Positions 2,598-8,497 are shown, counted from the stretch's first letter. The stretch: 47,047 nucleotides of DNA from Clostridiaceae bacterium (GCA_012840075.1 DUMC01000131.1:1-47047), one strand, 5' to 3'. Made by a program: numbers and translations. The notes: generated by a model not told the origin, from the letters alone.

Positions 2598-4625
2598 TTA
2601 CAGAATCGATTTAAAATTATTAGCTTCAAGAAAGGCTTCAACTGTATTAAATGCATTAAAAAACAATGGAGTTCCTGCAAATGATAATGGACTTACTGGA
2701 CCGATTGTCATAAATGAGTATTGTCTGCTTGATATATCAAATGCTGAGTGAGGATCCCTAAACAATTGATAAAGGTTCAAAGCATTTCCCGACGAGCCTA
2801 CCAGTTGCCTTAATGCCTGATATTCCTGCCCTAATCCTAGTCCAAATCCAAAGAAAAAGATACGCAATTGTTGTACTATCTCAATATCCAAACTTGATAG
2901 TGTCTGGCTTATAAAAAGCCAACCAAGCCCGTATTTTCTTGTTGTTCTCGCAGCGTCTACCAGAACTGAGCGAACCCCTCTTGCTGCATCATCATCTCTC
3001 GGTAATTCTCGTGGAGCTAAACGATGTGCTTCATCTATTATAACAAGGGTATTAAGATTTTGTCCCTTAAGATAATAATACTCAGCAGCAGTGTTTAATG
3101 CATCCAGTAAGCGCTTTATTACAAGGGATTGTATTTTATCGTTCCAAAACATATCTTTTGCTTGTTCCCGTGATAAGTCAATAATCATTACCGGTCTTGC
3201 TTTATTGTATTCTTCATCTTTACCGTGTTGCAGTAACCATCCTAATGCTCTGTTTATAGACCGTGCTCCTTTTCTATTTTCTTGAAATAATACTGTCACC
3301 GGAACCCAATATTCCTTATAGAATTCTGCTTTATTGGCTCCTTTTAATGCTGAAGCAAATCGTTCTCGTGAAGTTTCACTTCTATAGAAAATCTTTTGTA
3401 CATTCTCATCCGATAAAATAGACCACGCCTTTTCAAAAGCTTCCTTTTCATAAAGGTTTGCAAGTTTTATATTTGCTTTTCTAAGCCTTTCAGCCAAAAT
3501 ATTGCAAGCGATTTCTCGGTTTTCTCCTTTTGTCATGCTCAGTTTTTCAAAGAAAGGAGATTCATATAATATCTGTTCAAACAGTTCCCAAGTATCAAGT
3601 ACCAATCTTTTTATAGTTAAAACTGCAGTTTCCTTTCCTAGATTTTTGAGTAAATTACCTAATGGTAGTTGGAATTCCCCTGTTGGATGTCCTTGTATAT
3701 CTTTTGCAAACTCACCTTGGGGATCAATTATCAAAAGTGCCATTTTAGGATATCTGGCGTAAGCAAGAAGCACCATCTTTGCCAATACGGATTTCCCCGA
3801 ACCCGTTTTGCCGAATATTCCTATATGATAAGCTTCTCCTGCACCATCAGGTCCTTTGTCGAAATGTTTAAACCATAAAGGAAGCTTAGGTTTTGATCCG
3901 TAAACGTGCCCCAAATAATACAATTGGCTTTTATACGATCGTAAAATCTCATCCAGTATTTCGTCTGTCACCACATATATAGGTGTTCCCGTAGGTGGCA
4001 CTGTTCCCAATATACTTGGTTCATACATATTACAGGTGTTTTGAAAAACAGCACTTACTATCATTTTCCCCAGGTGAGTATCTTGCCGCTCACTTACAGG
4101 ATCCACCCTTCCCCGCTGACGTATCAGGCTTCGCATGGTAGGATCTTCATGCCATATGTTTCGCAGTTCCACTTCAGTTATCTGCCCAATTGCATAATGC
4201 GTATGGTTATCTTGAAGATATTCGAATAACGCCAGTTCTCCTACTAATTTCCTTCCGGTAGCTGCTCCAAGGATATCCAATGCTAATTGTGATGTTGATG
4301 ATGGTGAACCTATAACTCCTAATCTCTCTGTTTGTCCCACAAGTAGCTCTACATTGGTATTTTTGCTGTTTTTGCCGTTATTACCAGTATTTCCATAAAT
4401 ATTTTTATTTATGTTTTCGTTTATTTTTTCAACCATATCTTCCTTATTAATACCTTTATTATTTATATTTTTATGATTAATACTTTTATTATTAACATTT
4501 TTATTTATATTTTTGTATAAAATTCCCCTCGTATTGCCATTTACGTTATTATTTGCATCTACATTGTCAGTAATTTTGGCGTTTATATTTTCACTCACAT
4601 TTTCATCTATATAGTTGTTTGCCAC
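2598..4625 (-). CDS. HerA-like hexameric ATPase/translocase with an Asn-rich N-terminal extension
   Basis: The domain order is an Asn/Lys-rich low-complexity head (about residues 1-93), a beta-barrel-like segment (about 94-230), and a HerA/FtsK-type ATPase domain. The Walker A motif is GKTGSGKS (about 272-279) and the Walker B is LVIIDEAH (about 527-534). A sensor/arginine-finger region follows, ending near FGLGLGQEYQALRQL. HerA proteins translocate double-stranded DNA as hexamers and partner the nuclease NurA, whose homologue lies immediately upstream at 4867-6012. ATG 4631 touches the GGGGAGG ribosome binding site, so GTG 4625 (6-base spacing) is the more likely start. The low-complexity head is unusual and may be disordered. 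Family assignment is firm. The role (end resection, conflict defence or other) is inferred from neighbours. Confidence 0.9.
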   Translation of the reverse strand: MANNYIDENVSENINAKITDNVDANNNVNGNTRGILYKNINKNVNNKSINHKNINNKGINKEDMVEKINENINKNIYGNTGNNGKNSKNTNVELLVGQTERLGVIGSPSSTSQLALDILGAATGRKLVGELALFEYLQDNHTHYAIGQITEVELRNIWHEDPTMRSLIRQRGRVDPVSERQDTHLGKMIVSAVFQNTCNMYEPSILGTVPPTGTPIYVVTDEILDEILRSYKSQLYYLGHVYGSKPKLPLWFKHFDKGPDGAGEAYHIGIFGKTGSGKSVLAKMVLLAYARYPKMALLIIDPQGEFAKDIQGHPTGEFQLPLGNLLKNLGKETAVLTIKRLVLDTWELFEQILYESPFFEKLSMTKGENREIACNILAERLRKANIKLANLYEKEAFEKAWSILSDENVQKIFYRSETSRERFASALKGANKAEFYKEYWVPVTVLFQENRKGARSINRALGWLLQHGKDEEYNKARPVMIIDLSREQAKDMFWNDKIQSLVIKRLLDALNTAAEYYYLKGQNLNTLVIIDEAHRLAPRELPRDDDAARGVRSVLVDAARTTRKYGLGWLFISQTLSSLDIEIVQQLRIFFFGFGLGLGQEYQALRQLVGSSGNALNLYQLFRDPHSAFDISSRQYSFMTIGPVSPLSFAGTPLFFNAFNTVEAFLEANNFKSIL

Positions 4626-4690
4626 TTTCATCCTCCCCTACTTTCATTTATAGCCGTTGGCTTATCATTTATCCATTTGTTCCTTTTACC

Positions 4691-4728
4691 TTTTAGATTA
4701 CTAACCTGCTTTTAGATTACTAACCTGC
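4691..4728. repeat. Perfect 19-bp tandem duplication between the HerA- and NurA-like genes
   Basis: TTTTAGATTACTAACCTGC occurs at 4691-4709 and again at 4710-4728. Further short imperfect repeats of ATCTACATGTA type fill about 4799-4845. The 241-base spacer has no coding potential. Confidence 0.75.
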
Positions 4729-4866
4729 TGCCTCTCCTTGGTGATTTATCCTCCTAATTTTTACTCGTTAATTCGATTACCTGTTTCTTCATCCGATAAT
4801 TTATCTACATGTATCTACATGTAATTTATCTACCTGTAATTAATCCATCTGCTCTTATCTAGTAGT

Positions 4867-6012
4867 CTATCCTCCTGCTTCACTTCGATAGCCATGCATA
4901 GCAAAAAACACCTCTCCAATATCCCCATCATATTTTTCTGAAATATATTGGGCTGCAATTTGACGAAAAGCCGGCATTGAACGCGATAATGCCTTCACCA
5001 TGCGATCAGCCAGATATATTGGAAAAGGCTCTAACATCGACGCTGCAGCGCATTGATGTTTAATTCCTTGTATTAGCGTTGCTAACCGATACTTATTTGT
5101 AGCCACACTTTCTGCAAATTCTAAACGGATTGCAGGCAGCCAACTGTGTGGTTTATAATGACACACATATACATGATATAATGCATCGATTATTTGCTTT
5201 TCAACAACAGATGCTTTACTTCCTATATTCGGAATTGCTTTTGTATTCAAATGCCAAGGTTGAGCCGGTTTTTCTAACGGTAGTGGTCTTGTCATTTCTC
5301 CAGGTCTTAGAATAGCAGTCAATAAACCTCTATCATCCTGTTTAATATTCCAGTTCATCAATTTACTGATTTCTCTCCTAGTAGAATACTTTGGTATTGC
5401 TACATAATGCTTGTCAGAACGAATCCCTGTTAAAATTGATATATATGCTTCGAGATATTCTAAAGAGTTTTTTAAAAATTCCTGAGAACATTTAAGTTCC
5501 AGACTTTCCGGTGCTCTGTTCAAAGCTTGGTTAAAATATATGATAGGCAGTGTAATTGTTCCGTCCAACATTACGATATCATGAGGAGCTTTAACTGCCA
5601 ATTGTAATTCTCTTCCAAGCATTACCGCCCGTAATATCGTTGCTGTGTCCGGATTATGTACTTCCATTGATACGTATACAGAATGGCTTGGCTTCTCCCA
5701 ATAACGTTTTTCCGATGGAGGTGTAAGTCCTTCTACAGCAACTGCAGCAGATGCTATAAAGTCAGCAGTCAGCAATCTTTCTATAGCATATGAGCCATCT
5801 ACTCCACAAGTTGTTGGTAGTAGTGGATAACCTAAATCAGACTCATTAATAATTAATCCATTCTCTATCAGTTCTTCTCTCTGTTTATCCCGGTTCTCCT
5901 TAAATTCCTGGAATGTTTTTAACATACCTGAACCTGCATTAACAGCCTCATTTAAAAGTTCTTCTACTAATGCTGCTGGTAAATCCGTAAATAAAAGCTT
6001 ATCTGAATCCAT
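4867..6012 (-). CDS. NurA-like nuclease, partner of the HerA-like ATPase
   Basis: The protein is 381 residues from ATG 6012, the start best spaced from the AAGGCTGG site; the GTG at 6021 is possible. The NurA-domain signature is CGVDGSYAIERL (about residue 70), with the conserved Asp of the RNase-H-like metal site. A second acidic stretch, MLDGTITLP, follows near residue 150. Arg/Lys-rich and His-containing C-terminal segments complete the fold. NurA is a Mn-dependent 5'-3' exonuclease/endonuclease that resects DNA ends with HerA. It lies 241 bases upstream of the HerA-like gene and 100 bases downstream of the DUF4338 gene, all on one strand, which supports a three-gene unit. The identity of every catalytic residue was not checked by alignment. 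Confidence 0.8.
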   Translation of the reverse strand: MDSDKLLFTDLPAALVEELLNEAVNAGSGMLKTFQEFKENRDKQREELIENGLIINESDLGYPLLPTTCGVDGSYAIERLLTADFIASAAVAVEGLTPPSEKRYWEKPSHSVYVSMEVHNPDTATILRAVMLGRELQLAVKAPHDIVMLDGTITLPIIYFNQALNRAPESLELKCSQEFLKNSLEYLEAYISILTGIRSDKHYVAIPKYSTRREISKLMNWNIKQDDRGLLTAILRPGEMTRPLPLEKPAQPWHLNTKAIPNIGSKASVVEKQIIDALYHVYVCHYKPHSWLPAIRLEFAESVATNKYRLATLIQGIKHQCAAASMLEPFPIYLADRMVKALSRSMPAFRQIAAQYISEKYDGDIGEVFFAMHGYRSEAGG

Positions 6013-6112
6013 TACGTTCACCAGCCTTATTTTTCCTTATAATTATGCTCATTTATTTATTTTATTTATCTGTGATACTAATATTGATACTATTTACCTA
6101 GCATACATTACT

Positions 6113-7249
6113 CTATTTCCACAACATATACGATTCCGGGTCGAAGTCTAAGTAACGTTTATCTCTTGCTGCTCGCGGAAGCATCCATCTTTCCCGGAAA
6201 AACGTAAATAGGTCATCAACGGACTGATCAAATTCTACTAATATTTTATCATATCCCTGCAAAAAATTTCTAGTATTTTCAGCAAGTGGTACAACATATA
6301 TTTCTCTTTTTACACCATGATTTAGCCAATCATTTGAAAGTCCCAATGCTTTTAGACATTTTCCTACAATCTCCCGTCGATTGCGAAAACCACTTCCCCA
6401 TAAATGATGTTTTGACGTAGGCTTACAAGTCCTGTTTACAAATTCATATATTTCTTTGTATAGCCCACTTGAAAAGTGGAATTCTCCATATCCCTTAGTA
6501 AAACCAACTTTATGGTACAAAAGTCGGTCCTTGTATTTCAATCTATTGTATATTGAAGACCTTCCTAAAGCTGAAGTAGTCGTAATCATAGCTAATCTGC
6601 CATCATGAAGCTTTTTCTGAATCAACGATTGTCTGCTTCCGTATTTTGCCCTGAAAGCCTCTCTGACCTCATTACTTGCTGCAAGCATAGCAACAAGTTT
6701 GCCACATAATAAGTATGAGTAAGGAGGGACTGCGCCCAAAACAAAAGCATCCATTACATAACTTAACCTTTGTCTTTTCTGATCCTCGTCCCATCCTATC
6801 CATGTATCTCTTGCCTTCAAGCTGTATACAGGATCTCCCAAACCTATCAAGCCTATAAGTTTTCCATGGTATGAATCCATCACAAGAAAACGGAGTCGCC
6901 TTCCATAACCGGATGAAACAGGTATACTCCAATGTAAACTCGCATATCGGAAAAGCAACCCCTCAATTGAGTTTGAAGTCACCGTAACCAAGCATGGTTT
7001 AACTTTTTCCGGATTTATTTCACTGCCTTTAGCAAAATAACGAATCAGTTCATTTTCTTTTTTTTTCAAGTTAATACTAGCACTATCTCTTTTATGATTT
7101 ACAGCGATTTCATGCAATTCCCTTATCTTACTTTTTTCTATATCAGAAGGAAGTTCTATCCTGTCGTTGCTAACTATAAATCCTTGCTCTTCCAATGAAG
7201 CTATAATCAATTTTTTAAGTTCTGTCTTTTCCATGACTAATAACATCAT
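6113..7249 (-). CDS. DUF4338 (Druantia DruA-like) protein
   Basis: The 378-residue protein has the DUF4338 core: RFLVMDSYHGKLIGLIGLG (about 134-152), then RDTWIGW, then VMDAFVLGAVPPYSYLL (about 178-194). DUF4338 is the family of DruA in type I Druantia anti-phage systems. Its biochemical activity is unknown to me. Related single proteins also occur near transposons. Here it is the first gene of a minus-strand trio with NurA and HerA, so HerA could supply the motor function that DruE gives in Druantia. No DruB-E homologue is visible. The start is uncertain: ATG 7249 has only a weak GAAAG site, and the in-frame ATG at 7234 (MEKTELKK) is an alternative. No strong promoter was recognised upstream. 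Confidence 0.8.
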   Translation of the reverse strand: MMLLVMEKTELKKLIIASLEEQGFIVSNDRIELPSDIEKSKIRELHEIAVNHKRDSASINLKKKENELIRYFAKGSEINPEKVKPCLVTVTSNSIEGLLFRYASLHWSIPVSSGYGRRLRFLVMDSYHGKLIGLIGLGDPVYSLKARDTWIGWDEDQKRQRLSYVMDAFVLGAVPPYSYLLCGKLVAMLAASNEVREAFRAKYGSRQSLIQKKLHDGRLAMITTTSALGRSSIYNRLKYKDRLLYHKVGFTKGYGEFHFSSGLYKEIYEFVNRTCKPTSKHHLWGSGFRNRREIVGKCLKALGLSNDWLNHGVKREIYVVPLAENTRNFLQGYDKILVEFDQSVDDLFTFFRERWMLPRAARDKRYLDFDPESYMLWK

Positions 7250-8329: not shown

Positions 8330-8492
8330 TTTTTGAAGAAACGTCCCTCTTTTTGAAAAGCATCCCCCCTCTATTGCTGAAAGATGTAATTTGAGAAGAA
8401 GCATCTCCCTCCTTTTTTTTTTGAAAAATTTAATTTAAGAAGAAACGTCCCCCCTCTTTTGCTGAAAAATGTAATTTGAGAAGAAACGTCCC
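8330..8492. repeat. Roughly 42-bp tandem repeat containing GAAGAAACGTCCCC motifs
   Basis: Three to four diverged units alternate a GCTGAAAAATGTAATTTGAG-like part with AGAAACGTCCCC-like parts (around 8335, 8395, 8440, 8480). The core is the same motif that bounds the 1435-1934 element, here in one orientation only. It stops a few bases before the stop codon of the URO-D-like gene. Confidence 0.65.
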
Positions 8493-8497
8493 CTTCC

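Follow-up and report, generated by a model that had tools for sequence, protein, structure and literature searches.

A recurrent druA-nurA-herA gene trio of bacteria and archaea as a candidate anti-invader operon

Gene content and setting of the cassette

We analysed a 47,047-nt contig of a Clostridiaceae bacterium, the whole of which is referred to here as the window. Three neighbouring genes, all on its minus strand, lie in the order druA-nurA-herA. The original prediction had taken them for a HerA-like ATPase, a NurA nuclease and a DUF4338 protein, and Pfam searches confirmed the families as well as the coordinates:

2598-4631, minus strand: herA, HerA-class hexameric DNA translocase of 677 aa (Pfam DUF87, 1.2e-11), with invariant Walker motifs
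4332-4631, minus strand: N-terminal extension of HerA, rich in Asn (31 in about 100 residues), delimited by alignment and composition
4867-6021, minus strand: nurA, NurA nuclease of 384 aa, RNase H-like, with GTG start (Pfam NurA, 4e-8)
6113-7249, minus strand: druA, DruA/DUF4338 protein of 378 aa with GNAT fold (Pfam PF14236, 2.4e-120)

Alignment with relatives revealed that all three genes are full length, and the PF14236 match of the window DruA extends over positions 2-297 of the 297 in the model, which makes it a full-length member of the family. The dN/dS values, calculated against the two nearest relatives, were 0.05-0.08 for each gene, thereby indicating that purifying selection maintains druA, nurA and herA. 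Intergenic gaps of 91 bp and 235 bp separate druA from nurA and nurA from herA, respectively. The Asn-rich N-terminus of HerA is missing in most of the aligned relatives. When PADLOC was run on the window, the DruA model was matched at 6e-120 and HerA models weakly, with no match for NurA.

The cassette is located close to one end of the 47-kb contig, the genome being fragmented. An accessory-island setting, as originally predicted, is weakly supported in this window: repeats are present, and so is a broken gene, a Gfo/Idh/MocA oxidoreductase gene that appears as two ORFs (333-803 and 831-1427), but the other large ORFs checked were chiefly those of carbohydrate metabolism and regulation. No further defence genes were seen near the trio among these large ORFs. 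Directly downstream of herA, at 2028-2276, is the gene for a small DNA-binding protein of AbrB/MazE type, whose C-terminus is rich in Cys.

All nine copies of AGAARCGTCCCC in the window (at most one mismatch) are located at 1434-1935 and 8337-8493, where they bracket the AbrB, herA, nurA and druA genes; the chance expectation was 0.06. The left cluster possesses perfect 14-bp inverted ends. Exact copies number only 20 genome-wide and are clustered between genes, and one pair on another contig flanks an apparent RAYT-type transposase gene. A role of the repeats as ends of a mobile element was not supported, since further copies are found between other genes and around the RAYT-like gene. They are probably dispersed REP-like sequences, and not the IS relics for which they had been taken at first.

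Recurrence of the trio and exchange of DruA

A NurA profile was scanned against one genome per species in about 85,000 species, which yielded 80 loci. One further locus, on a contig that looks bacterial, was obtained from viral contigs, bringing the total to 81. DruA adjoins NurA-HerA in 66 of these 81 loci, usually in the order druA-nurA-herA, a count biased towards DruA-linked members because four of the five NurAs used to build the profile were DruA-linked; the survey also includes near-copy loci (the Thermoflexus, Thermogemmatispora and Thermomicrobiaceae sets). The druA gene was directly upstream of nurA in 58 loci, 2-3 kb upstream in three and downstream of herA in five, and was not found in 15. 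The genes mostly overlap or abut, the median gap across loci being -16 bp between druA and nurA and 0 bp between nurA and herA. Carriers belong to at least 18 bacterial and three archaeal phyla. The suggestion that DUF4338 would be found repeatedly next to HerA-NurA was thus borne out in many phyla.

A sample of 398 genomes from the phylum was searched with the window NurA alone, and NurA was matched in six genomes besides that of the window. DruA was present in the same cluster in five of these six, in agreement with the large scan. DruA-family genes were detected in 48 of the 398 genomes, and eight of the 12 full-length DruA genes of this sample have HerA as a neighbour or, where the contig stops, the NurA from a NurA-HerA pair. 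The 59 relatives searched, most of them from the same order, had neither NurA nor DruA of the trio type. This absence, taken together with the spread over many phyla, points to horizontal transfer, and the horizontal spread of a recurrent operon is typical of accessory systems. By Pfam model search, the trio DruA was the sole DruA in 48 of 49 carrier genomes; therefore, trio DruAs are not stray members of a multi-copy family. No conserved fourth gene was found; the neighbours of the trio vary. The NurA query gave no match among phage proteins, nor did the DruA query in E. coli DNA. The druA-nurA-herA trio is almost certainly a functional unit.

Pairwise identities among 55 complete trios were closely correlated between NurA and HerA (rho 0.90), whereas the correlation between DruA and NurA was only 0.26, with a permutation maximum of 0.19. 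Some loci combine a DruA 49-61% identical to that of the window with a NurA sharing only 32-38% identity with the window NurA. Trio DruAs fall into several clades of the DruA tree, and between these stand the DruAs from loci with a DruE-type helicase. One locus (L166) harbours a far more divergent NurA-HerA-DruA cluster, and in another (L161:6296-10652) the genes for DruA, a 385-aa protein and HerA form one operon. Searches with the 385-aa middle protein gave no demonstrable NurA identity, and it may be a diverged or replaced nuclease. The difference between the two correlations, the DruA tree and these two loci together indicate that NurA-HerA behaves as one unit, which DruA joined as a partner more than once. 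NurA and HerA thus co-evolve, and DruA is swapped between NurA-HerA pairs, as could be expected of a subunit for specificity or self-marking.

Several loci depart from the simple arrangement. A gene for a sacsin-ATPase with a NO VEIN (NOV_C) C-terminal domain is present between druA and nurA in two of them (L038:2769-5933 and L041:4845-7976), and a pentapeptide-repeat protein gene occupies this place in a third (L042:5693-7990). A further locus (L026:934-11883) encodes, in one direction, a DruE-like helicase, DruA, NurA, HerA and then, as judged by eye, a DUF262-like protein. In three loci nurA is found as two adjacent or overlapping ORFs (L012:7796-8945, L087:8004-9153 and L030:7977-9155), which could reflect a split gene, a frameshift or faulty sequencing. 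The Rhizobium plasmid pRlX5 (L176:5001-10075) carries NurA-HerA without DruA, followed by an apparent GHKL-type ATPase, which is perhaps an alternative partner for the NurA-HerA core. Three loci from Nitrososphaeraceae (L075, L076 and L078) also have NurA-HerA without DruA, here directly adjoining Mre11 and Rad50 genes in the classic repair arrangement; Mre11-Rad50 was found beside none of the DruA-linked loci.

Folds, active sites and related systems

The AF2 monomer model of NurA (pLDDT 92) was compared with solved structures. It matched T. kodakarensis NurA from the HerA complex at Z 22.4 over 308 residues and Sulfolobus NurA at 22.0, followed by Pyrococcus-type NurA (18.9), TdpAB chains (13.9) and the next family (8.8). 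The match to the T. kodakarensis protein and the Pfam match (4e-8) confirmed NurA as a family member with RNase H-like fold. The catalytic acids D75, E138 and D153, on whose retention the first reading of the trio as one system had leaned, were kept on alignment in 54-55 of 55 sequences. Going by its DG motif, D75 would be the equivalent of D49, an essential residue of T. kodakarensis NurA (PMC12977600). In HerA, Walker A (GKTGSGKS) and Walker B (IIDEAH) were invariant in 55 sequences, signifying an intact HerA/FtsK-class ATPase. Its closest solved relative by sequence is TdpA (6e-11), and other HerA-class ATPases come next.

The AF2 monomer model of DruA (pLDDT 93) shows a helical N-terminal region at residues 8-69. 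Nearly all of its best structural matches are GNATs (Z 8-9.7), which assigns DruA to the GNAT fold, and DUF4338 has already been termed a GNAT domain by Rakesh et al. (PMC10853773). The top solved match is the DNA adenine modifier Mom of phage Mu (Z 9.7, rmsd 3.8, 177 residues of a 222-residue chain), which is tied with other GNATs since these reach Z 9.2. Despite this structural likeness, comparison of DruA and Mom sequence profiles by hhalign detected no match; a Foldseek search of the PDB with the DruA model gave no significant match. The acetyl-CoA loop motif [RQ]xxGx[GA] was present in the expected region in none of 55 DruAs, and DruA may therefore not be an enzyme. About 30 residues, for example K184, S226, S231, S232, Y234 and R236, are invariant in these 55 divergent DruAs.

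DruA-like proteins also occur in cyanophages and Pelagibacter phages, and DruA-like predicted structures in the giant viruses Faunusvirus (E 7e-18), Yasminevirus and Dasosvirus. The annotation of a cyanophage DruA-like protein as 'methylcarbamoylase mom' was set aside, as this protein is in phrog_19197 (unknown function), a different family from that of Mom (phrog_1384).

The Tdp system (TdpA-TdpB-TdpC) carries out phosphorothioate-based modification-restriction in thermophiles, where TdpC modifies DNA and thereby marks self. It resembles the trio in having a HerA-class motor and a NurA-like nuclease in one complex, with TdpA as the closest solved relative of the trio HerA. However, the NurA of the trio is matched better by archaeal NurA (Z 22) than by TdpB (Z 13.9), and the third gene of the trio encodes DruA, a PF14236 protein of GNAT fold. 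Since the third protein is from another family, the trio was not filed as Tdp. HerA-NurA of archaea and Deinococcus is the same pair with the same catalytic residues (Z 22.4 to the T. kodakarensis complex), but the trio is coupled to DruA and horizontally spread, with no Mre11-Rad50 beside its DruA-linked loci.

As regards Druantia type I, the window DruA is 37-38% identical, over nearly the full length, to plasmid DruAs in DruE-like helicase loci, but the trio has HerA-NurA where Druantia has DruE, the component common to all Druantia types (PMC13192584). The absence of DruE noted in the original prediction was upheld: no DruE-like ORF was present in the window or in 65 of the 66 DruA loci, the exception being L026. 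Membership of Druantia was rejected because DruE is absent. The HerA-Sir2 and HerA-DUF4297 complexes, cited as anti-phage complexes in PMC12977600, likewise combine a HerA motor with a partner effector against phages, but the effector of the trio is NurA, with druA as an additional gene. No paper or catalogue entry for a trio of DruA, NurA and HerA was found in open-access full text or in a 2023 catalogue, and we provisionally regard the trio as undescribed so far.

Candidate function and competing readings

An anti-invader role of the trio is, we infer, probable. The reading that we prefer has, in its entirety, about an even chance: druA-nurA-herA would be a mobile three-gene anti-invader operon, where HerA-NurA degrades DNA and DruA discriminates self from non-self. 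The HerA hexamer would pump double-stranded DNA into the NurA dimer, which would degrade the DNA thus fed; the conserved catalytic residues and the fold of characterised HerA-NurA complexes argue for such a degradation core. A machine that degrades DNA processively and passes from genome to genome must spare self, which makes DruA the obvious candidate to supply the discrimination. DruA would most likely do so by modifying DNA, whereby own DNA would be spared and unmarked invader DNA destroyed, a logic that may parallel the phosphorothioate modification of TdpABC. The original proposal that HerA-NurA degrades while DUF4338 recognises or modifies still appears to be the best reading, going by the modelled GNAT fold of DruA and by TdpAB as a structural analogue of the core. 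That DruA is a DNA modifier has slightly under an even chance. We put forward more tentatively that DruA may be a new kind of DNA-base-modifying enzyme and the trio a modification-restriction system widespread among bacteria and archaea, with DruA exchanged between restriction cores as its self-marking module.

The sacsin/NOV_C or DruE-like genes in or beside some operons are of defence type and favour a defence role. An excess of methylase-motif ORFs near the trio (18 of 335, as compared to 2 of 183 in control regions of the same genomes; p 0.016, by a test picked post hoc) supports the defence reading weakly. When trio and control neighbourhoods were compared by PADLOC, with top families only, the control regions happened to contain CRISPR and type IIG genes.

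The trio unites in one recurring operon the unexplained DruA of Druantia, the disputed role of bacterial HerA-NurA and defence by HerA motors. Two questions, the function of DruA and the choice between defence nuclease and repair enzyme for bacterial HerA-NurA, are now directly testable. The occurrence in at least 18 bacterial phyla and in archaea suggests that the 2023 catalogue lacks a common system. If DruA were indeed a DNA-base modifier, this would also account for its role in Druantia.

Among the alternatives, the one that survives best retains the defence operon but considers DruA a sensor or loader, which would recognise some feature of infection, in the form of a phage protein or a DNA structure, and would activate or recruit HerA-NurA. 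The missing canonical acetyl-CoA motif and the missing sequence link to Mom favour it, the helical region 8-69 could bind partners, the subtype-specific partner in Druantia III is a likely sensor (PMC13192584), and Druantia-type DruAs are paired with a helicase and not with HerA-NurA. We nevertheless consider it rather unlikely, as the approximately 30 residues invariant in 55 DruAs include a Ser/Tyr/Arg/Lys cluster resembling a catalytic centre, and as sensors of phage features usually diversify.

HerA-NurA of D. radiodurans resects DNA ends in vitro (PMC9960219), and three related loci without DruA adjoin Mre11-Rad50; both would fit a horizontally spread DNA-repair or recombination module in which HerA-NurA resects ends and DruA is accessory. 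Such a module is improbable here, given that Mre11-Rad50 adjoins no DruA-linked locus, that the distribution is patchy and DruA is exchanged, and that T. kodakarensis HerA-NurA, an ATP-driven complex degrading both strands of dsDNA, cannot make 3' overhangs, its authors preferring antiviral defence to end resection (PMC12977600).

It is very improbable that DruA is a protein acyltransferase effector targeting proteins of the host or the invader, and that HerA-NurA degrades DNA as a separate arm. The GNAT fold would suit this role, many of the GNAT matches of similar Z being protein or small-molecule acetyltransferases, and co-effector roles have been proposed for GNAT domains fused to DndF (PMC10853773), but the acetyl-CoA loop motif is missing in 55 of 55 DruAs and the operon couples DruA closely to a DNA-degrading pair. 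Common as DruA-family genes are (48 of the 398 phylum genomes), the chance presence of a stray one beside HerA-NurA has a negligible probability, and was ruled out by the 66 of 81 loci (a count raised by the DruA-linked profile), the overlapping genes, the many phyla and the repeated independent assembly.

Elsewhere in the genome of the Clostridiaceae bacterium, contig 109 (L177) carries an apparent second defence island with a methylase-like gene and a 2133-aa helicase possessing an MrfA-type Zn domain, along with, as judged by eye, a TIR protein and then a possible short Argonaute.
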